Assembly (NCBI GenBank): GCA_022785125.1
Contig: JALFRA010000027.1
Location: forward strand, 1-64,000
Direction of reading: 5' to 3'
Source of the DNA: Clostridiales bacterium
Lineage (GTDB): Bacteria > Bacillota > Clostridia > Oscillospirales > Oscillospiraceae
Length of the DNA stretch: 64,000 bases
Shown here: positions 30,475-52,583 of the stretch, in pieces
Layout: each line of letters starts with the position of its first letter
How positions within the stretch are numbered: the first letter of the stretch is position 1
The notes under the pieces: generated by a model
Database searches by the model: none
What the model was told of the DNA's origin: nothing
What the model saw: the letters and a program-made list of their open reading frames with translations, nothing else
Made by a program: the position numbers and the translations under genes

Positions 30475-31596
30475 TCAGCTCTCTTCCTCCGGCGGCTTCA
30501 CAGTGATGTAGAAATAGGAACTGCTGTAGTCGGTGTACTCCTCCTGGCTTTCCGTATAATACCCGATGGACAGGCCCTCTTCTTCATAGTAGGACCGGCA
30601 GTTCTCATAGTAGGAATTCTCCTGGAAGAGGGCGATAAAGTCCTCTTTGAGGGTGTGCTCCTCCCCCAGGTTGGGAGACAGGAAGGGAACATCCGCGGAA
30701 CGAAGGGCCTGGTTCAGACGGGCCAGATCTGCCTTTGCATGGGCAATGTTGTCCTCCTTGGAGGAATTGACGTCGATCCCCAGGGAGTAGGTCACCGCTT
30801 CCACCACGCCGTTGTTGTTGACCGTCACGGCCAGATAGGACCGGGTGTCGTTATTCTCATCTTTCAGACGGCCTGTTACCCCATAGCCGTAGTCCTTGTA
30901 ACGCTCCGTGGGGTCGTCGGCAGATACGCTGTCACAGGAGTCCTCGAAAACCTGCTCCAGCTTCTCCACCACCGCCGCCGCCTGAGCGGCGGATTCATGA
31001 TGCTGCTGGATGCCATCCAAATAGGAGGGGATCGTTATAGCCACCAGCAGCGCGGCAGGGACCAGAAGAATGGCCAGTACCCGAGTCTTGGCGGCGGGGA
31101 GCTTGATCCCCAGCAGCTCTGCTATGTGCTTAGCGCTTTTCCGAACTTCAAACAGTATCCCCACAATGGCGTGCATCCCCACCACGCCGCCCACAGCGGT
31201 GCTGATGTCCCCGGCGGTTTTAATCGTATCGTTGTCCGACCGGGACATCAGCCGCCCCGCCGCCACCGCAGTGTTGGCCGCCAGCAGCTGGGTGGTGCGG
31301 TCGGTGTAGGAGACGCTGGTCCTGGCCTTCTCCGCAATGGCGGCCCACTTTTTCCTCCTGACGCCCCACATGACGCTGATGGCCTGGATCAGAAACAGAG
31401 CCATACAGAGCAGCAGGAGTACAAGCGATCCGTAAAGTGCCGGACCTGTGGAGCCTTTCAGATCGAAGGCAACGCTCCCGATCATTTCCAGCAGAATCCC
31501 AAACACCATAGCCAGCAGACCGGAGCCAAACCAGGCCAGCGCGGTCACCGGTCTGGTGTAGTACCGCCGAATGGTTTTGATTTCTCGTTCCGTCAT
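30475..31596 (-). CDS. Membrane protein of unknown function
   Basis: A 373-residue protein. Two N-terminal membrane segments (about 16-40 and 50-74) and one near residue 175 (VLAILLVPAALLVAITI) precede a predicted extracytoplasmic domain of about 190 residues rich in Glu, Asp, Ser and Tyr. A cytoplasmic region between the helices contains TTQLLAANTAVAAGRLM. I recognise no family. It lies 29 bases after trmO and may be the last gene of that transcript. Confidence 0.7.
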   Translation of the reverse strand: MTEREIKTIRRYYTRPVTALAWFGSGLLAMVFGILLEMIGSVAFDLKGSTGPALYGSLVLLLLCMALFLIQAISVMWGVRRKKWAAIAEKARTSVSYTDRTTQLLAANTAVAAGRLMSRSDNDTIKTAGDISTAVGGVVGMHAIVGILFEVRKSAKHIAELLGIKLPAAKTRVLAILLVPAALLVAITIPSYLDGIQQHHESAAQAAAVVEKLEQVFEDSCDSVSADDPTERYKDYGYGVTGRLKDENNDTRSYLAVTVNNNGVVEAVTYSLGIDVNSSKEDNIAHAKADLARLNQALRSADVPFLSPNLGEEHTLKEDFIALFQENSYYENCRSYYEEEGLSIGYYTESQEEYTDYSSSYFYITVKPPEEES

Positions 31597-31625: not shown

Positions 31626-32321
31626 TCACCCGGCAGGCGTTTTTTCCGGTTTGATCGAGCGGACGGTAAGGACCTCTCCGTCCACGGTAAACCCTACCTC
31701 CAGCCCGGCAAACGCCATGCCGTACACCCGGTGGGGGTCGTGCTGGTAGGAGGGCCGGGGGTCCCGGGACAGCACCCCCATCAGGGCCTCCCGCTTGCCC
31801 TCCGGTACCTGCTCCAATAGTTCCGTCGGGAAGGATACCTCCAGTACCTTGCCTCCCACGTTGCCGGTAAAGCCCCCCAATGCCTCCGGGTGGGCATCGG
31901 CATAGGGAAGATAGGGCTTGATGTCCAGGATGGGGGTGCCGTCCATCAGATCGGCTCCCGACACCACCAGCACGGTACCCAGCCTGGGGTCCTTCTCAAT
32001 GGACTCCAGTTTCACGCAGGACAGACCGATGGCGTTGGGCCGGAAGGGAGAGCGGGTGGCGAATACCCCCATGCGGGTGTTGCCCCCCAGGCGGGGGGGC
32101 CGCACCGTGGGGGACCACTTGTCCCGCACTGCCTCAGAAAACTGCCAGATGAGCCAGATGTGGGAGAACTCCTCCAGCCCCCGCAGGGCGTCCGGATTGC
32201 GGTACTCGGGCTCAAAGACGATGGTGGCTTTCAGCTCCTCCACCAGCCCGCTCTGCCGGGGGATGCCGAACTTGGTGGGGAAGTCGCTGCGGATACGGGC
32301 GATGATGTGCATGGGGATCAT
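31626..32321 (-). CDS. trmO: tRNA (N6-threonylcarbamoyladenosine37-N6)-methyltransferase TrmO/TsaA-like
   Basis: A 231-residue protein: MHIIARIRSDFPTKFGIPRQSG, LEEFSHIWLIWQF, TRSPFRPNAIGLSCVKL and ILDIKPYLPYADA are TsaA/TrmO signatures. It methylates t6A37 in some tRNAs using AdoMet. Its ATG overlaps the stop of the upstream GTPase-nuclease gene by 4 bases, so the two are coupled. Both concern translation. Confidence 0.92.
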   Translation of the reverse strand: MIPMHIIARIRSDFPTKFGIPRQSGLVEELKATIVFEPEYRNPDALRGLEEFSHIWLIWQFSEAVRDKWSPTVRPPRLGGNTRMGVFATRSPFRPNAIGLSCVKLESIEKDPRLGTVLVVSGADLMDGTPILDIKPYLPYADAHPEALGGFTGNVGGKVLEVSFPTELLEQVPEGKREALMGVLSRDPRPSYQHDPHRVYGMAFAGLEVGFTVDGEVLTVRSIKPEKTPAG

Positions 32322-34939
32322 TTGCTTCCCTCCTGTGCCTTTTTCAGGGCGGCGGCCACCGGCCGGGACGGGGTGGACCGGTTATTTTTCGCCAGAATGG
32401 CGGCGATCTGACCGGAAGCCTGCTCCACTTCCGCTTTAAAGGTGGTGGCGGACAGCCGCAGGGCGCCGTGGCCCAGAATGATGAGCTGTTCCGCTCCGTC
32501 GGAGGTGGCCACCCGCACCCGGTGGTGCCTGCTGATCTCGTAGGTGGCCCGCTCGATATAAGTGTCCGCCGTTTCCGCCTCTTTGGTATACACAACGTAA
32601 ATATTGTGGTATTTGAATACATCCTGTACATTACGGGGCACCTTGTAGGCGTCAAAGACCAGGATGACCACGTTCTTTTTAAAGCCCTGATAGTTGCTCA
32701 GCAGGTCCATCAGCAGCTGCCGGGCGGCGTCCAGATTGGTCTGGGCCACCGCCTTCAGTTCCTCCCAGGCGAAGATGATGTTATAGCCGTCCACCAGCAG
32801 GTACTCCGGTCCCCGGTTCTGGGTCTGGACGTTGTACTTCCCCTCGTCCAGGCTGGTGCGGGCAGGCTTGGGCTGGGGCCGGAAGGAGCTGCGCTCCACC
32901 TTGCCGTAGGTGCGCTCGTAGATGGCCAGCAATTCCTTGTCCTGCTCCAGGGACAGGCCGGAATTGCTGCTCCGCCGGACGGGGGCAGCGGGGGTCTCCG
33001 GCTCCGGGGGCTTGTCCAGAGACAGGCCGCTGTCCACATGGGCCATCTCCTTCACCTGGTCCCACTTCACGTTGTACCCCGCCCCGTGGGCGCAGAACAC
33101 CGAGCCGGTGGGGTTGTCCACGTCCCGCTCCGGATCGTAGCCCAAAGCCTCCACCACATTTTGCTGGTCGTGGCAGGGATAGTAGCCCTTCAAGGTGCAG
33201 CTCAGCCGCCCCATACCTCTGGTGTAGGCGGCCACCTCGCTGCCGTAGTCCCGCAGGCCCGCCACCGGGGCGGAGCCGGTGAGGACGGTCAGTTCTCCCG
33301 CCGTCTCCGGGGGATTACAGTCGCCCCCCATCCGCTGGAGGTCGCTCATGGCCCGCCCCACCTGGGCGGCGGGCACCTCCAGCCGGAAGGAGTACCAGGG
33401 CTCCAGCAGGACGCTCTCCGCCTCCATCAGGCCCTGACGCACCGCCCGGTAGGTGGCCTGCCGGAAGTCGCCTCCCTCGGTGTGTTTCAAATGGGCCCGG
33501 CCTGCCAGCAGGGTAATTTTCACGTCGGTGAGGGGAGAGCCGGTAAGCACGCCGGGGTGGGCCCGTTCAGCCACATGGGTGAGGATCAGCCGCTGCCAGT
33601 TGCCGTCCAACACATCCTCCGGACAGGCGGTGGCCAGGGTCACGCCGCTCCCCCGCTCCCCCGGCTCTATCAACAGATGGACTTCGGCGTAGTGGCGGAG
33701 CGGCTCGTAGTGGCCCACGCCGATGACGGGGGCGGCGATGGTCTCCCGGTACACGATGCCTCCCTGGCCGAAGCTGACCTCCATATTGAATCGCTCGGCA
33801 ATGAGCCGCTGCAAGATCTCCAGCTGGACCTGGCCCATGAGCTGGATGTGGATCTCTTTTAGCCGCTCACTCCACACCAGATGGAGCTGGGGATCCTCCT
33901 CCTCCAGCTGGCGCAGCTTCTGCATGGCGGTGACCGGGTCCTGGCCGTCAGGCAAAATCACCTGATAGTTGAGTACCGGCTCCAGGGCAGGAGGCGTACC
34001 CTCCGCCTCAAAGCCCAGGCCCTGCCCGGCGGCGGCGGAGCCCAGACCGGTGACTGCCACCACGGACCCCGCCGGAGCCGCGTCCACCGGCTGGAATTTC
34101 ACGCCGGAGTATACCCGCAGCTGGTCGGCCTTGTCGCTCCAGCCGGGGCCGTCCAGCACCGTTTTTGCCTTTAAACTGCCGCCGGTGATCTTCATCCAGG
34201 CCAGCCGGTTGTTCTGATTGTCCCGGGAGATCTTGAAGATGCGGGCGCCGAATTGATCGCCGTACACCGGCCGGGAGGCGTATTGCTCCAGGCCCCGGAG
34301 GAAGTCCTCTACCCCCTCCAGCTTTAGGGCAGAGCCGAACCAGCAGGGAAACAGCTTCCGTTGGGCGATGAGGGCGGTGAGGGCAGCGTCGGCAATGGTC
34401 CCCGTCTCCAGGTAGTCCTCCAGCAGGGACTCGTCACACAGGGCGGCCTGCTCGCAGAGGGCCTCCTGATCCCCCATGTCCACGCAGCCCTCGTCCAGCT
34501 TGCTTTTCAGCTCCCCCAGCAGAGCGGCCTTGTCTGCCCCCGCCAGGTCCATCTTGTTCACAAAGAGGAAGGTGGGCACATGATAGCGCTCCAGCAGCTT
34601 CCACAGGGTATGGGTGTGGCCCTGGACCCCGTCGGCTCCGCTGACCACCAGGATGGCGCAGTCCAGCACCGACAGGGTGCGCTCCATCTCGGCGGAGAAG
34701 TCCACGTGGCCTGGAGTGTCCAGCAGGGTGATCTCCAGCTGTTCCAGAGGGAGCAACGCCTGCTTGGAGAAGATGGTGATGCCCCGCTCCTTCTCCATGG
34801 GGTCGGTGTCCAGAAAGGCGTCCCCGTGGTCCACCCGGCCCAGCTTCTTCAATTTTCCGCAGGCGTAGAGCAGTCCCTCGCTGAGGGTGGTCTTGCCTGC
34901 ATCCACATGGGCCAGAATGCCCACGACCAATTTTTCCAT
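32318..34939 (-). CDS. TetM-like ribosomal GTPase fused to a YacP/Rae1-type NYN nuclease domain
   Basis: An 873-residue protein. Residues 1-about 640 are an EF-G/TetM-type factor: G1 ILAHVDAGKTTLSE, KERGITI, G3 DTPGHVDF, G4 NKMD, and domain IV/V segments. After a Pro-rich linker, residues about 712-860 are a NYN domain of the YacP type: LLVDGYNIIFAWEEL, VFDAYK, TKEAETADTYIERATYEI and VATSDGAEQ, keeping the acidic residues. In B. subtilis Rae1 (YacP) is a separate nuclease that cuts mRNA in the ribosomal A site. Here delivery and nuclease would be one chain. ATG 34939 follows AAAGGA; upstream codons overlap a promoter. Automatic calling as tetracycline resistance should be treated with caution. 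Confidence 0.88.
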   Translation of the reverse strand: MEKLVVGILAHVDAGKTTLSEGLLYACGKLKKLGRVDHGDAFLDTDPMEKERGITIFSKQALLPLEQLEITLLDTPGHVDFSAEMERTLSVLDCAILVVSGADGVQGHTHTLWKLLERYHVPTFLFVNKMDLAGADKAALLGELKSKLDEGCVDMGDQEALCEQAALCDESLLEDYLETGTIADAALTALIAQRKLFPCWFGSALKLEGVEDFLRGLEQYASRPVYGDQFGARIFKISRDNQNNRLAWMKITGGSLKAKTVLDGPGWSDKADQLRVYSGVKFQPVDAAPAGSVVAVTGLGSAAAGQGLGFEAEGTPPALEPVLNYQVILPDGQDPVTAMQKLRQLEEEDPQLHLVWSERLKEIHIQLMGQVQLEILQRLIAERFNMEVSFGQGGIVYRETIAAPVIGVGHYEPLRHYAEVHLLIEPGERGSGVTLATACPEDVLDGNWQRLILTHVAERAHPGVLTGSPLTDVKITLLAGRAHLKHTEGGDFRQATYRAVRQGLMEAESVLLEPWYSFRLEVPAAQVGRAMSDLQRMGGDCNPPETAGELTVLTGSAPVAGLRDYGSEVAAYTRGMGRLSCTLKGYYPCHDQQNVVEALGYDPERDVDNPTGSVFCAHGAGYNVKWDQVKEMAHVDSGLSLDKPPEPETPAAPVRRSSNSGLSLEQDKELLAIYERTYGKVERSSFRPQPKPARTSLDEGKYNVQTQNRGPEYLLVDGYNIIFAWEELKAVAQTNLDAARQLLMDLLSNYQGFKKNVVILVFDAYKVPRNVQDVFKYHNIYVVYTKEAETADTYIERATYEISRHHRVRVATSDGAEQLIILGHGALRLSATTFKAEVEQASGQIAAILAKNNRSTPSRPVAAALKKAQEGSK

Positions 34940-34968: not shown

Positions 34969-34977
34969 AGTATATCA
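34969..34977 (-). promoter_or_regulatory. Extended -10 promoter of the GTPase-nuclease gene
   Basis: TGATATACT on the minus strand, 30 bases upstream of the ATG. The -35 is weak. Confidence 0.5.
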
Positions 34978-34996
34978 TGTCCGGGGGAACGGGGCA

Positions 34997-35026
34997 AATA
35001 AAAAGGGCCCCGAAGGGCCCTTTTGG
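34997..35026 (-). terminator. Terminator of the SDR gene
   Basis: AAAAGGGCCC pairs with GGGCCCTTTT. On the minus strand the loop is TTCG, a very stable tetraloop, followed by a T-run. Confidence 0.9.
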
Positions 35027-47852: not shown

Positions 47853-48167
47853 TTACTTCTTGTTTTGCAGCTTGAAGATCTCCCGCTTGGCCTCCGAGAG
47901 CTCCAGTTTCAGCTTGGTGGCTTCCTCCAGATATTCTTTCAGCTGGCGGCGCAGGTTCTCTGCCGCCTCCACCTCTTTAAAGTATTCGTCGGCAATATTC
48001 ACCGCCGCCAGGACGGCACCGTCCACCAGAGAGACGCGGGCGCCCTCCATGACTTCCCGCACCTTTTCGTCCACGTGGGCTGCCACCTTCTCGGTATAGC
48101 CGGCGTCCTCGGTGCCAACCAGGGTGTACTCCTGCCCGGCGATGGTAACGGCGACGCGGTTTTTCAT
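47853..48167 (-). CDS. zapA: Cell division protein ZapA
   Basis: A 104-residue protein with a short globular head (VAVTIAGQEYTLVGTED, YTEKVAAHVDEKV), and a C-terminal coiled coil (EVEAAENLRRQLKEYLEEATKLK). ZapA bundles FtsZ filaments. First gene of the zapA-U32-dut-maf-mreCD-PBP2-amylase run, with AGGGGTTTGC upstream of the ATG. Confidence 0.88.
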   Translation of the reverse strand: MKNRVAVTIAGQEYTLVGTEDAGYTEKVAAHVDEKVREVMEGARVSLVDGAVLAAVNIADEYFKEVEAAENLRRQLKEYLEEATKLKLELSEAKREIFKLQNKK

Positions 48168-48257
48168 GCAAACCCCTCCTGACCATAGTAATTTATAGTA
48201 TTATACCATATCCAGCCCCGGAAGAAAAACAAATTCTTCGTGAATTTTCGCGGGGAC

Positions 48258-48303
48258 GCAAAAGGCCCGTAGGCGGAATGGATTCATTCCGCCTACGGGC
48301 TTC
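48258..48303 (-). terminator. Long hairpin, probable terminator
   Basis: GCCCGTAGGCGGAATG (48265-48280) pairs with CATTCCGCCTACGGGC (48285-48300); on the minus strand CTTTTG follows. Its GCGGAAT/ATTCCGC core recurs at 50680 and 52772. Confidence 0.75.
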
Positions 48304-48341
48304 AACAGGAAGATTTTTATTCTGATGCCTGACGTATCTGC

Positions 48342-48695
48342 TTATTCATTGATGTCCGATTGTTTCTCCAGTGCCTCTCTGCGGCGGATGAGGCAGATCA
48401 TTACGCCACGGAGCATCAGCACTGCGAAAGTAAACAAAAACGCCAACACTGCCAGCAGAGCCATGGCCCCGAAGGTGTGGACCTCTCTGACGGGCCGCCA
48501 CACCACCCGAAGCGCAATTAGAAGGAGCACGGTAGTGATCACATTGGTTATATTTTGACCCATGCCGCGGACCGATCGGTCAAAGTCGCCGTCGGCCAGC
48601 CGTTCCGCCAGCCTGCGGGCCAGAACACGCCCAACCAGCAGATAGAGAAGTTCACCTGCGATTAATCCGCCCAGGCTGAGTAGAAAAGTGTTCAT
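48342..48695 (-). CDS. Small membrane protein of unknown function
   Basis: A 117-residue protein with three hydrophobic segments (about 3-23, 45-66 and 74-98), an Arg-rich loop (GRVLARRLAERLADGDFDRS) and a basic Cys-containing end. No family recognised. It is single, ahead of the terminator at 48258, on the border of the AT-rich island. Confidence 0.65.
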   Translation of the reverse strand: MNTFLLSLGGLIAGELLYLLVGRVLARRLAERLADGDFDRSVRGMGQNITNVITTVLLLIALRVVWRPVREVHTFGAMALLAVLAFLFTFAVLMLRGVMICLIRRREALEKQSDINE

Positions 48696-48784
48696 ACCGC
48701 ACTCCTCACTTTCTAAAAATCAAATTGAATACCTGTGATTATGGATGAATGGTCTTAATGGAGTGGAGATGGCTTCTTTTTATT

Positions 48785-49473
48785 TTATGCCCAGGTGGCA
48801 TAAATGGTTGTTCGTGCGTCTTTTACTTCGCCGATTAAATTACCATTTGAATCTTTGCCCATAAAATATCTGCAGTCAATTTTTCGCACAAAAGGCATCT
48901 TGTCCGTAGAGTAATGAGTCTCTTTGCTGTACACATATTTTGAATCCTGCCACTCCATATTGTCTTTGACAAAGTCAATGATATCAGATGTAATTTGTGC
49001 GGCCACCCCTGTAAATAATTCCAAAGCTGCACTGACTAGTTCCATGAGTACGGCAACAGATACATTGACTACAGCATCGTGTAATTCAAGATCAATAGTT
49101 CTGGTTGTCTCATATACATTGAAGTCACTTTCAGTAAGCCAATCATATGGACAGGTTTCCTGGCGAATCCAGCCGCTGCGACGCTGGGGATCAAGTTTGG
49201 AAGATGTTTCTTTAATTATAACAGTTATGGCTAATTCTCCGTTTAAAAATACTTCATTTCCAATTTTTTGATTACATTGCCGTCAAATTCCCTGCGTATG
49301 ACAACGCCAACGTTGGGACGATAGTATTCTTTGTAAATTCGCCCATCAAACTGATATGTTTGCAAAAGTGTGTCTTGCGAATCGTTTTCTTGATATGAAA
49401 CGGCATAGGCGGGCATAAAAGTGCTTATAACTATGGAAAGCAACAAGATAGTGGAAACTAGTTACTTTTTCAT
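48785..49473 (-). pseudogene. Secreted protein broken by a stop at codon 4 and a one-base frameshift
   Basis: GGGAGG precedes ATG 49473, which reads MKK, TAA, then LVSTILLLSIVISTFMPAYA, a signal peptide in frame with the stop. The frame continues YQENDSQDT..DGNVIKK and then breaks in a run of six A (49269-49264). Adding one A joins it to IGNEVFLNGELAITVIIKET, which runs open to TAA at 48785. Repaired length is 229 residues. The region is AT-rich, unlike its neighbours. The family is unknown. Confidence 0.8.
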
Positions 49474-49593
49474 ATTATGCCTCCCTTTTGCAGTCAAAGT
49501 TGCTTGCATTCAACAACTTTTGCTATCACGAAGTGCCTTGAACCTACAAAGATATTTAACCCACGGGACTCACATCCTTCCTATACGAACGGT

Positions 49594-49618
49594 GGGCGGG
49601 CGGATCCGCCGTCCGCCT
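49594..49618 (-). terminator. GC-rich palindrome after the secreted-protein gene
   Basis: GGCGGATCCGCC core with GGGCG/CGTCC flanks lies just past the stop at 49624. There is no strong T-run. The remaining bases to 49473 hold the pseudogene leader only. Confidence 0.4.
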
Positions 49619-49623
49619 GCTTC

Positions 49624-50079
49624 TTAATAGTTCACAGAACCGGAAACACCGACCTTATAAGATGCGTTATTTCGGATGGCCAGCGTATAGGTACCGGCCT
49701 CCGTCATTTCAATTGTTTTGCTGATTTGTCCGCCGGTGACGGTGAAATAGTGGAAGGAGCCGTCTGAATAGATCAGTCCCACGTCCAGTTTTGCGGTAGA
49801 GGGGGTGTAGGTGGCGTTGATGGTGATGGTTTCTCCCGCAGACATGGAAAAGCTGCTGGAGGCCTTTGACAGTGTATTTGCAGAAATTCTAATATCATAG
49901 GTTTCAGTCGCTCTGGATTCAATAAGGCTGTCTATTTGATGCTCCAGAAGAGACTTTGCACCCACACCGTGCGTCATATCACATTGGACCGCAAAAGCCG
50001 GGCTTTGCATACTGAGACACCCCAGCAGGGCAACACAAGCCGTTACTGCTATTAACCTATTTTTACAATTCATTCCCAT
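49624..50079 (-). CDS. Small secreted protein of unknown function
   Basis: A 151-residue protein with a signal peptide (NRLIAVTACVALLGCLSMQSPAFA; the GCLS could also be a weak lipobox). The mature part has a short helix and a C-terminal beta-sandwich (SMSAGETITINATYTPSTAKLDVGLI, EAGTYTLAIRNNASYKVGVSG) like pre-peptidase or bacterial Ig-like domains. Its ATG overlaps the end of the upstream membrane XRE gene by 10 bases, so the two are translated together. Confidence 0.75.
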   Translation of the reverse strand: MGMNCKNRLIAVTACVALLGCLSMQSPAFAVQCDMTHGVGAKSLLEHQIDSLIESRATETYDIRISANTLSKASSSFSMSAGETITINATYTPSTAKLDVGLIYSDGSFHYFTVTGGQISKTIEMTEAGTYTLAIRNNASYKVGVSGSVNY

Positions 50080-50525
50080 GGCACTAAATCAAACTCCTCT
50101 CCAACATTTACATTTTCTTCTACTACTAGATCGTCTGAAAACATTTTAGCATCCCCGCTTGTGCCGGCGACCCCAAAACCGACCCAAATCCCCAGGCCTA
50201 GGATACCCGCAGTGGCAAGAGACAAAACCACTGTCAGCAGAGCTGTCCGCCGCCTGTGGGGCTCCCGTACCGCCGGGCGCTCCGGCTGCGCCTCAGGCTC
50301 CGTCACCTCCTCCCGGGGCTTGGCTGCTTCAGGGCCGTATACCAACTCGTTCAGAGACAACCCGTACAACTGGCTCATCTGGATCAGGCTGTCCAGGGAG
50401 GGCGTCCCCACGCCGGTCTCCCACCGGGAGATGGCCTGCCGGGACACGTTCAGCCGCTCCGCCGCATCGGCCTGGGAAAGCCCTCTGGTCTTCCGTGCCT
50501 GGGCCAGTCTCTCTGTCAATTCCAT
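50070..50525 (-). CDS. XRE-family regulator with a membrane anchor
   Basis: A 151-residue protein. HTH at 1-60 (LAQARKTRGLSQADAAERLNVSRQAISRWETG), a Pro/Glu-rich linker, a membrane helix (about 96-118, LTVVLSLATAGILGLGIWVGFGV) and only about 33 residues outside (DLVVEENVNVGEEFDLVPWE). Its N-terminal 110 residues resemble the next XRE protein (50877-51704), but the C-terminal sensing domain of the latter is missing. Coupled to the secreted-protein gene. Confidence 0.85.
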   Translation of the reverse strand: MELTERLAQARKTRGLSQADAAERLNVSRQAISRWETGVGTPSLDSLIQMSQLYGLSLNELVYGPEAAKPREEVTEPEAQPERPAVREPHRRRTALLTVVLSLATAGILGLGIWVGFGVAGTSGDAKMFSDDLVVEENVNVGEEFDLVPWE

Positions 50526-50541
50526 CTTTCTTCACCTCAAC

Positions 50542-50606
50542 AGCGTAGCTGATACCTGATTTTTTGTAAATATCATCTCCGTTGCACAGGAGCAATGAAG
50601 CGTTGC
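50542..50606 (-). promoter_or_regulatory. Promoter module, copy 3 (before the first XRE gene)
   Basis: Minus strand TTTACA (50570-50565) and TACGCT (50547-50542), 17 bp apart. Upstream is a decayed palindrome (GCAATGAAGCGTTGC, 50592-50606) that is intact in the other two copies. The leader GCTGTTGAGGTGAA contains the ribosome site. Confidence 0.65.
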
Positions 50607-50679
50607 GTGCCCTTTATTTTACCTCTATTTGCCCGATCCCGCAACCTATGACCCCATCCGGCCTCCTCCGCACATGACA

Positions 50680-50718
50680 AAGCCCGGGGGCGGAATGAAT
50701 TCATTCCGTCCCCGGGCT
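50680..50718 (-). terminator. Long hairpin in the XRE intergenic gap
   Basis: AGCCCGGGGGCGGAATGAA pairs with TTCATTCCGTCCCCGGGCT. Its GCGGAAT core matches the hairpins at 48265 and 52772. The T-run is weak (CTTTG). The gap 50526-50876 otherwise holds the promoter modules only. Confidence 0.6.
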
Positions 50719-50792
50719 CTGGAAGGGAATAAGAATAGGGAAACGCATTTTGAAGCTGCGGACACGTCTGTGTCATCTCTATCCTCAAAATC

Positions 50793-50861
50793 AGCTTATC
50801 CAATGGAGCGTTTCTTGTAAACCACATATCTGTTGCAGAGGGGGCAACGCTCCGTTGCCCC
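50793..50861 (-). promoter_or_regulatory. Promoter module, copy 1 (orphan)
   Basis: Minus strand palindrome GGGGCAACG/CGTTGCCCC (50861-50841), then TTTACA (50821-50816), 17 bp, TAAGCT (50798-50793). It lies after the 50877 gene with no convincing gene downstream, so it looks like a remnant of a deleted XRE gene. Confidence 0.65.
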
Positions 50862-50876
50862 GGGACTGCCAGACCT

Positions 50877-51704
50877 TTATCCTTTGAATTGCACCGCGGA
50901 GATTTGGATTTCCACCGTTCCGCCCTCGCCGCTGCCGGTGGAGATATCCACGCCAAAGCGGGGCTGGTGGTTGTTCCCGCCGCTCTCCAGCACTTCAAAG
51001 GTGCGGGTGACGGTGGCCCCGACGGGGATCTGGGTGGCAAGCATATCCCGCCCGTTTTCTTGCAGGTAACCGGCCTGGAACAGCAGGGGCTGGGTACCGT
51101 TGTTGGTGACGGTGACGCTGAGATAGCGGCCATTGGCGGCCACAAAGGGGATGTCCCGGCTGAAATTGCTGCCGGAACGATATTCGGTGTCCTCCAGCAC
51201 ATGGATGCCCAGTTCCTGCGTCACAGGCTCCACCTCGCCGAAGGGACCCACCTGCTCTCCTGCACGATCCAGCGGCAGCTTGTCCCAGTCCTGTTCCACT
51301 CCGCCCACCACGATCACCGAGCTGCTATGTTTGCCCTTGTCGCTGGTTATCAGGCCGCTGCCCCAAATCCCCAGGGCCAGGACCCCCGCGACCACAAGGG
51401 CCAGCACCGCCAGCAGGGCGGGCCGCCTCCTTTTAGGTGTTTGTGCCGGCTCCGGCTCTTTCGTCAGTACCTCCGATTCCGGAAGCTCTTCCGGGACCTC
51501 CGCTCCTCCCACACCGTATACCAGCTCATCCAGCGACACCTGGTACAGCTTGCCCATCTGGATCAGGTTATCCAGGGTGGGCATCCCCGTTCCGGTCTCC
51601 CACCGGGAGATGGCCTGCCGGGATACGTTCAGCCGCTCCGCCGCCTCGGCTTGGGAAAGCCCCCGGGCCTTCCGGGCCTGGGCCAGTCTCTCTGTCAAAT
51701 CCAT
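50877..51704 (-). CDS. Membrane-anchored XRE regulator with extracytoplasmic sensor-like domain
   Basis: A 275-residue protein. HTH at 1-60 (LAQARKARGLSQAEAAERLNVSRQAISRWETG), a linker, a membrane helix (about 96-117, ALLAVLALVVAGVLALGIWGSG), then a beta-rich domain from about residue 140 to the end (PFGEVEPVTQELGIHVLEDT, SGSNFSRDIPFVAANGRYLS, FGVDISTGSGEGGTVEIQIS). The same C-terminal domain closes the protein at 51810-52583. This suggests a one-component transmembrane regulator, with the outside domain sensing a ligand or partner. Confidence 0.82.
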   Translation of the reverse strand: MDLTERLAQARKARGLSQAEAAERLNVSRQAISRWETGTGMPTLDNLIQMGKLYQVSLDELVYGVGGAEVPEELPESEVLTKEPEPAQTPKRRRPALLAVLALVVAGVLALGIWGSGLITSDKGKHSSSVIVVGGVEQDWDKLPLDRAGEQVGPFGEVEPVTQELGIHVLEDTEYRSGSNFSRDIPFVAANGRYLSVTVTNNGTQPLLFQAGYLQENGRDMLATQIPVGATVTRTFEVLESGGNNHQPRFGVDISTGSGEGGTVEIQISAVQFKG

Positions 51705-51809
51705 GTTTTTTCACCTCAACAGCGCAGCGTATGCAGGAGTTAGTACCTCTCATTCTACTGTTCTTTTCCCCATTCCGCAACCCGCCTGAATCTGGTAAGA
51801 TTCGGGGCG

Positions 51810-52583
51810 TTACCCGTTGAACTGTACTGCGGAAATCTGAATCTCCACCGTTCCGCCCTCTCCGCTACCGGTGGAGATGTCTACGCCGAAGCGGGGCTGA
51901 ATGGCTGCACCGCTCTCCAGCGCCTCAAAGGTGCGGGTGACGGTGGCTCCGGCGGGGATCTGGGTGGCGAGCATATCCCGTCCCGTGGCATATAGATGTC
52001 CTGCCTGGAACAGCAGGGGCTGGGTGCCGTTGTTGGTTACGGTGACGCTGAGATAGCGGCCGTTGGCGGCCACAAAGGGGATGTCCCGGCTGAAATTGCT
52101 GCCCGAGCGGAATTGGGTCTCCTCCAGCAGCATGATGCCGCCTTTCCGGGCGGCGGGCTGGACCTCGGCAAAGGGCCCTGCGGTCTTTCCCGCCTGATGC
52201 AGCGGAAGGGAATCCCATGCGGTCTCCCCGGTACCCGGTTCCACCGTAATGCCGCCCCCACCGTCCCGGCCCAGCACGACGGTCGTTTCGTCTCCGTCCC
52301 AGGTGATGGGTACGTCCAGCAGGTTGGCGATGGTCCGCAGGGGCAGGTAGGTGGTGCCGCCCCCCGCCTCGTCGGTGTAGACGATGCTGGAGGGGACGGA
52401 CTGCCCGCTCTCGGTGTTCACGCTGTCGCCCGCCGCGAAGATGGCCTTACCATTCAGCTGGAGTCCCACGGGGCTGAACTGCACCAGGCCGGAGGCGGCC
52501 AGGGCGGTGGTGACGCAGCCCATGGTCAGGACCGTGGCCAGGACGCCGCTTAAAAACGGAATAACAGAACGGTTCTTTTTCAT
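51810..52583 (-). CDS. Secreted protein: stalk (copper amine oxidase N-like) domain plus the shared C-terminal domain
   Basis: A 257-residue protein with a signal peptide (FLSGVLATVLTMGCVTTALA), then a stalk domain (VGLQLNGKAIFAAGDSVNTE, TTYLPLRTIANLLDVPITWDG, TTVVLG) typical of Clostridia surface proteins, and from about residue 140 a domain almost the same as the end of the XRE protein at 50877-51704. It lies 105 bases upstream of that gene on the same strand. One possibility is that it modulates or competes with the sensor. Confidence 0.8.
   Translation of the reverse strand: MKKNRSVIPFLSGVLATVLTMGCVTTALAASGLVQFSPVGLQLNGKAIFAAGDSVNTESGQSVPSSIVYTDEAGGGTTYLPLRTIANLLDVPITWDGDETTVVLGRDGGGGITVEPGTGETAWDSLPLHQAGKTAGPFAEVQPAARKGGIMLLEETQFRSGSNFSRDIPFVAANGRYLSVTVTNNGTQPLLFQAGHLYATGRDMLATQIPAGATVTRTFEALESGAAIQPRFGVDISTGSGEGGTVEIQISAVQFNG

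Follow-up and report, generated by a model that had tools for sequence, protein, structure and literature searches.

Does a gene that joins a TetM/EF-G-like GTPase to a YacP-type nuclease encode a tetracycline resistance protein, or a nuclease that is brought to the ribosome by its own GTPase? The question is raised by a 64,000-nucleotide stretch of a Clostridiales genome (GCA_022785125.1, contig JALFRA010000027.1, positions 1 to 64,000; hereafter the window), in which an ATG-started frame of 873 residues runs from 34939 to 32318 on the minus strand. The answer that we favour, and regard as rather probable, is that the protein is a chromosomal ribosome-directed endoribonuclease, composed of a dedicated translational GTPase, a flexible linker and a Rae1/YacP nuclease, which has replaced stand-alone Rae1 in much of Clostridia. 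An earlier reading of the letters alone (the original prediction) had located such a gene at 32318..34939; the coordinates are correct, the frame however lies on the minus strand, and the plus strand is interrupted there by stops. The four motifs that it quoted (LLVDGYNII, VFDAYK, TADTYIERAT and TSDGAEQ) are all found exactly in the frame, and Pfam places in that one frame both an EF-G/TetM-like GTPase (E 1.6e-49) and, by domain search of the C-terminus at residues 714-865, a YacP-type NYN domain (NYN_YacP, E 3.7e-47). The gene is laid out as follows.

32318..34939, minus strand: 873-residue GTPase-NYN fusion gene; full-length relatives 93-95% identical in Flavonifractor (loci L002-L006)
34277..34927, minus strand: G domain (Pfam GTP_EFTU), residues 5-221, with P-loop AHVDAGKT, DTPGH and NKMD
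34022..34252, minus strand: EF-G domain II (Pfam EF-G_D2), residues 230-306
33767..33979, minus strand: EF-G domain III (Pfam EFG_III), residues 321-391
33419..33757, minus strand: EF-G domain IV (Pfam EFG_IV), residues 395-507
33461..33487, minus strand: domain IV loop KHTEGGDFR, residues 485-493, replacing the Tet and EF-G loops (pattern comparison)
33164..33412, minus strand: EF-G domain V / EFG_C (Pfam), residues 510-592
33038..33187, minus strand: subfamily C-terminal extension, residues 585-634, with near-invariant C589, C616 and H634 (alignments)
32801..33037, minus strand: variable linker, residues 635-713, with the partly conserved stretch DKELLAIYERTYGKV (alignment)
32345..32800, minus strand: YacP/Rae1-type NYN nuclease domain, residues 714-865, with D717, D763, D792, E796 and D814 (Pfam, alignments)

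Chance or an assembly artefact as the source of the fusion was ruled out because full-length relatives occur in many genomes. As the closest of these belong to Flavonifractor, the window probably derives from a Flavonifractor-type genome. Between the GTPase and nuclease halves the linker spans 56-143 residues, with a median of 77 (92 of 94 proteins parsed).

The C-terminal half is of the Rae1 type. Its match to NYN_YacP scores 160.8 bits against a gathering cut-off of 24.6 and covers profile positions 1-153 of 166. When the C-terminal 161 residues were compared with the PDB, four sequences were returned at E <=1, and only the YacP structures 5mq8 and 5mq9 were significant (E 4e-24, residues 2-150 against 4-152). 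The predicted Rae1-type nuclease with retained catalytic acids was borne out, since D717, D763, D792, E796 and D814 are invariant in all 48 full-length fusions aligned, window protein included. This alignment holds the window and 47 of 55 relative loci; omitted were L015, L017, L048, L050, L052 and L053, which are truncated at contig ends, the broken L055, and L056, a stand-alone NYN. The same five acids are present in 41/41 fused and 20/20 stand-alone domains, and passages of one paper describe conserved acids of such kind as the active site of NYN nucleases (PMC11346440).

Compared with Rae1/YacP of B. subtilis (5mq8, 5mq9), the window domain thus shares the NYN_YacP family over nearly its whole length and the same acidic residues; Rae1, however, is a stand-alone protein (PDB chain of 181 residues), whereas here the domain forms the C-terminus of a translational GTPase. 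Stand-alone YacP frames measure 160-216 residues in 86 of 87 genomes carrying them without the fusion and 342 in the remaining one. Fused and stand-alone domains also differ at two positions when rows L125, L128, L143 and L153 are set aside: position 765 is Y in all 39 fused domains compared and H in 15 of 18 stand-alone YacP, and position 723 is F, Y or H in fused domains and N in all 18 stand-alone ones. Two stand-alone domains, L125 (genome G225) and L128 (genome G209), resemble the fused type; they are 57-58% identical to the window NYN, read VFD[AG]Y, and each has an unfused GTPase in its genome. They may be nuclease halves set free from a fusion.

The GTPase half carries the G motifs and domains I-V and so belongs to the EF2-type translational GTPase superfamily. 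A second alignment, of 37 fusions (A1, L048 among them), shows no variation at the P-loop lysine, in DTPGH, its histidine included, or in NKMD, in agreement with the predicted retention of the GTPase motifs. Scored as patterns, the P-loop was found in 33/34 fused rows and DTPGH in 34/34, and the window protein has all three motifs. With catalytic motifs kept on both sides of the linker, both halves look alive. EF-G has domains I-V and the GTPase motifs in common with the fusion, but its loops GKGQYGHV/YHEVDSSEMAF are missing from the latter, which reaches 252.4 bits with the EF-G model TIGR00484 against a curated cut-off of 659.

This GTPase forms a dedicated subfamily, distinguished by domain IV loops and a C-terminal extension that are specific to it. 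Two loops mark it: HTxGGDF occurs in 33/34 fused and 20/20 unfused relatives, against none of 8 canonical Tet protection proteins, 7 Tet-like proteins and 2 EF-G types, and HY[AS]EV in 34/34 fused and 20/20 unfused rows. In the extension, C589 is kept in 33/34, C616 in 32/34 and H634 in 32/34 fused rows, and each in 20/20 unfused ones, while H618 is histidine in 27/34 and 6/20, respectively; the four residues could form a metal (zinc) site. A GTPase tree of 71 rows separates the 54 fused and unfused members, as one clade (100/100), from the canonical Tet, Tet-like and EF-G sequences; the 34 fused rows of the sample likewise hold together as a single branch (100/99). In the rows sampled, the fusion arose once on the GTPase tree.

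These data bear directly on the tetracycline question. The architecture itself is not new: passages of Atkinson 2015 (PMC4342817) describe Tet proteins with a YacP-like NYN domain in ten Clostridiales species, class them as Tet and guess at a ribonuclease-based resistance role. The view suggested there and in some annotations, namely that a ribonuclease was added to a ribosomal protection protein for tetracycline resistance, we consider very unlikely. The fold and the top NCBIfam model are indeed those of Tet, but the score of 383.3 bits stays far from the curated cut-off of 775 (NF012153). Among 293 genomes sampled from the class, 23 pass 775, and the best fused protein reaches 452 bits among the matches listed by score; unfused proteins reach up to 467, and frames of ~690-705 residues, probably EF-G, 400-425. 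With EF-G types as outgroup, Tet and Tet-like rows together come out as the sister group of the subfamily, and they are the closest kin of the fusion's GTPase on the tree, yet the subfamily branches outside the Tet-protection clade (100/100). Tet(M), Tet(O) and Tet(W) share the five domains, but differ in their domain IV loops and lack the C-terminal extension present in the fusion. The tips of domain IV are what dislodges the drug in Tet proteins, according to parts of the same 2015 paper (PMC4342817), and the Tet loops SPxSTPxDF and NP[FY]WA, present in 8/8 canonical proteins, were found in 0/34 fused and 0/20 unfused rows. Seven Tet-like relatives below the cut-off also lack them, and carry neither loop set except for one chance-like HY[AS]EV match.

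Distribution speaks against the resistance role as well. The fusion is a majority gene of its own family (78/120 genomes), and 7 of the 23 canonical-Tet genomes also have it, where 8.2 are expected, so that Tet protection is carried independently. A search of 72,556 plasmid records matched the GTPase part in 1,345 of them, but the greater portion of the fused C-terminal 299 residues in only 2. Both of the latter are large and typed non-mobilizable. One, from Agathobacter rectalis (NZ_CP143948.1, L190 2474-5275), encodes a 933-residue fusion, WP_306784676.1, which RefSeq labels a TetM/TetW/TetO/TetS family resistance protein; the other, from Monoglobus, is annotated 'translation factor GTPase family protein'. 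By score, domain IV loops and tree, the product is not a bona fide tetracycline-protection protein, and tetracycline resistance conferred by it appears unlikely from sequence; the original prediction had said so, and had also rightly suspected that the fusion is stored under a resistance name. An unfused relative of 644 residues with the subfamily extension, encoded on L. salivarius pMP118 (L192 2486-4420, LSL_RS10690), is likewise named TetM/TetW/TetO/TetS; its variant loop reads HTVGGDFR, and the first-loop pattern used did not match it. Some records thus give the name of tetracycline resistance to a chromosomal gene that is widespread in gut Clostridia, and resistome counts, which may include fused and unfused members, could be inflated.

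How the fusion relates to stand-alone YacP was examined in the same class sample. NYN_YacP was found above cut-off in 191/293 genomes and the subfamily C-terminal extension, used as a marker, in 125/293. The fusion is present in 104/293; stand-alone YacP occurs without it in 87/293 (13 of which carry an unfused GTPase elsewhere), the unfused GTPase without any YacP in 6/293, and neither the GTPase subfamily nor YacP in 95/293. Fused status was assigned by frame length, and marker frames <840 residues in eight fused genomes (G071, G156, G062, G190, G172, G185, G044 and G235) were attributed to contig ends or an interrupted frame. A single marker match was seen in 103/104 fused genomes, G235 having two adjacent pieces. 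Two genomes were called neither fused nor unfused: G203, which has a truncated GTPase and lacks YacP, and G206, where a stand-alone YacP accompanies a GTPase match of 39 positions in a 44-residue frame. Weak second YacP matches in G120, G174 and G208 (47 positions, ~21 bits, below cut-off) and a 19-position fragment, the only YacP match of G261, were not counted. Within the family of the window genome, 74 of the 78 marker-positive genomes have the marker in frames of at least 766 residues; the marker is found in 4/4 members of its genus among the genomes listed, own included, with 22 marker-negative family genomes not among them. A phylum-wide sample gave the marker in 21/299 genomes. In genome G206, the GTPase remnant (C2:56004-56120) and the stand-alone YacP (C8:64905-65399) contrast with two genomes of the same genus, G017 and G047, which carry the fusion; the pattern looks like loss of a fusion.

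Stand-alone YacP and the fusion nearly exclude each other: among the 104 fused genomes the former was detected in G284 alone, whereas 87 of the 189 remaining genomes have it (Fisher 1e-19, with no correction for phylogeny), and no second PF05991 match was found in the genome of the window. From this near-exclusion we read the fused nuclease as a replacement of stand-alone YacP that does the same work. The same pattern argues against the idea, which we hold doubtful, that the NYN domain cuts ribosomal or transfer RNA (rRNA, tRNA) in maturation or quality control with the GTPase serving only to carry it to ribosomes or ribosomal particles. A role of NYN domains in rRNA/tRNA maturation has been proposed, as cited in Atkinson 2015 (PMC4342817); the GTPase subfamily also exists without nuclease, and in Flavonifractor-type loci the fusion gene overlaps the tRNA-modification gene trmO. 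The nuclease, however, is of the Rae1/YacP type, reported as a cutter of A-site mRNA in passages of PMC6613710, and the coupling to trmO is lineage-limited (14/55 loci).

Similarly improbable, in our estimate, is a scheme in which the GTPase is the main actor, as an alternative translocase or a ribosome-rescue/splitting factor, and the fused Rae1 a convenience partner that works mostly independently. The unfused GTPase of 19 genomes, 6 of them without any YacP, accords with it, as do the unfused form on pMP118 and the long and variable linker; on the other hand, 104 genomes preserve the fused form, the catalytic residues of both halves are retained, and fused and stand-alone YacP almost never coexist.

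Several observations weigh against our preferred reading of a ribosome-directed nuclease that took the place of Rae1. The exclusion test ignores phylogeny; since some families (f22, f23, f28 and f47, for example) contain fused and stand-alone genomes alike, the pattern is nevertheless more than one deep split. One genome, G284, keeps fused and stand-alone YacP together, 6 genomes have the GTPase but no YacP, and 74 of the 87 stand-alone genomes have YacP but no subfamily GTPase (G206, among the 74, has a GTPase fragment). Because each occurs alone, neither half needs the other, and the GTPase and the nuclease can each be useful by themselves. A Rosetta-stone pairing of the separate parts proved weak, and was rejected: YacP accompanies the unfused GTPase in 13/19 genomes, against 74/170 other non-fused genomes (p 0.05). 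Conservation is also incomplete, with E at position 817 in only 30/41 fused domains and the strict NK[MIL]D pattern in 31/34 fused and 14/20 unfused rows. The NYN tree fails to group the fused domains and shows 4 fused/stand-alone label changes; with weak support, stand-alone L125 and L128 lie among fused domains and the long fused row L153 among stand-alone ones. As this tree is poorly resolved, the single origin of the fusion rests on the GTPase tree. Transfer-messenger RNA (tmRNA), present in the own genome, discriminates nothing, being to our knowledge near-universal in bacteria. Finally, a single A site has no room for both a Rae1 domain and domain IV of a factor resembling EF-G or TetM, hence delivery must be sequential or aimed elsewhere.

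How, then, might such a protein work? Parts of PMC6613710 describe B. subtilis Rae1 as a ribosomal A-site endonuclease, whose access stalls may raise, and report that its loss suppresses the swarming defect of an efp mutant; passages of a review group Rae1 with nucleases acting on A-site mRNA, whose cut frees this site for tmRNA (PMC12320835). An EF-G-like GTPase would be a natural carrier to this site. We infer that the fusion protein binds ribosomes, is delivered to the A site, couples its action to GTP and has mRNA as its target, in an order of which the following seems the likeliest. The GTP form of the GTPase would dock at the factor-binding site of a ribosome with an empty or stalled A site; GTP would then be hydrolysed and domain IV released or withdrawn; and, with the A site vacated, the tethered nuclease would gain local access to the mRNA lying there or immediately in front of it. 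The nuclease would cut this mRNA, and tmRNA or another rescue pathway would follow. Alternatively, the cut may fall where mRNA enters the ribosome, or on an adjacent ribosome.

A bolder version, which we put forward only tentatively, would make the fusion a single-polypeptide bacterial no-go-decay machine, whose GTPase inspects stalled ribosomes and whose GTP hydrolysis licenses the tethered Rae1 to cut mRNA. In eukaryotes, stall sensing (Hbs1-Dom34) and the nuclease are separate roles; if such a machine existed, one bacterial protein would unite them, and the unfused GTPase would stand for an unnamed class of stall-sensing factors, partly labelled as tetracycline resistance. Should cleavage be gated by GTP hydrolysis, bacteria would have in the fusion a compact enzyme of mRNA surveillance. 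Related genomes that hold the Rae1-type domain with and without a built-in GTPase offer a natural test of how the nuclease reaches ribosomes.

With the architecture already published in 2015, what is added here is mostly scale and identity: compared with the clostridial Tet-NYN proteins of Atkinson 2015, the architecture is the same, but it belongs to a separate subfamily, is far more widespread, has unfused members and nearly excludes stand-alone YacP. The original prediction was therefore supported in part, having overlooked both the 2015 publication and the nuclease-free forms of the GTPase. In the literature searched, no discussion was found of the breadth of the fusion, of a subfamily with its own loops or of a single origin, nor of the unfused relatives, the near-exclusion of YacP or the doubtful resistance label; a 2018 paper on Rae1 distribution may cover part of this.

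The surroundings of the gene comprise three further features.

31626..32321, minus strand: trmO (Pfam TrmO_N/TrmO_C), with a 4-base ATGA overlap with the end of the fusion gene
34969..34997, minus strand: promoter-like site TTGCCC-17-TATACT with TG before the -10 (extended -10), found by scan ~30 bases upstream of the ATG
35000..35020, minus strand: hairpin GGGCCC-TTCG-GGGCCC-TTTTT, likely terminator of an upstream SDR (short-chain dehydrogenase/reductase) gene, seen by eye and absent from the scan list

The coupling to trmO had been taken as support for a role in translation quality, and this did not hold. The 4-base overlap is limited to 14/55 loci (12 titled Flavonifractor, one Pseudoflavonifractor and one untitled close relative); trmO lies 474 bp away in L034 and 2.7 kb away in L052, and was not found within the available flanks of the other 39 loci, which are unequal, several at contig ends, and include the stand-alone NYN of L056. 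As a general functional partner, trmO was thus rejected. No family-wide conserved neighbourhood was detected: outside Flavonifractor-type loci, the widest neighbour cluster spans 8 loci, in a set of open reading frames that includes unfiltered shadow frames. Downstream of trmO, a 373-residue membrane-type protein (by eye; no Pfam match) is encoded at 30475-31596 on the minus strand. Upstream of the fusion gene, the promoter-like site (one of 3 in the region, 0.8 expected) and the preceding hairpin with its T run suggest that the gene probably starts its own transcript. Rfam gave no match in the window at gathering thresholds.

Other origins were considered. A defence system was rejected, no PADLOC family having matched up to E 0.1. 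A phage gene was rejected likewise: among 29 viral contig loci, 2 have a 52% match to the GTPase (residues 1-636) at a contig edge, 3 have short N-terminal pieces (42-50%) and 24 match at 27-30%. Two unannotated faecal 'Bacteriophage sp.' records, MT835563.1 (L193 7173-7964) and MT835514.1, encode most of the fused C-terminus; these stretches are perhaps host DNA.

Elsewhere in the window, positions 48000-50000 have a G+C content of ~0.40-0.56 against ~0.62 for the window and are likely a foreign stretch. Two helix-turn-helix proteins are encoded close together at 50070-52583 on the minus strand, and, by eye, the C-terminal part of the second (50877-51704) recurs in an adjacent secreted-looking protein (51810-52583).

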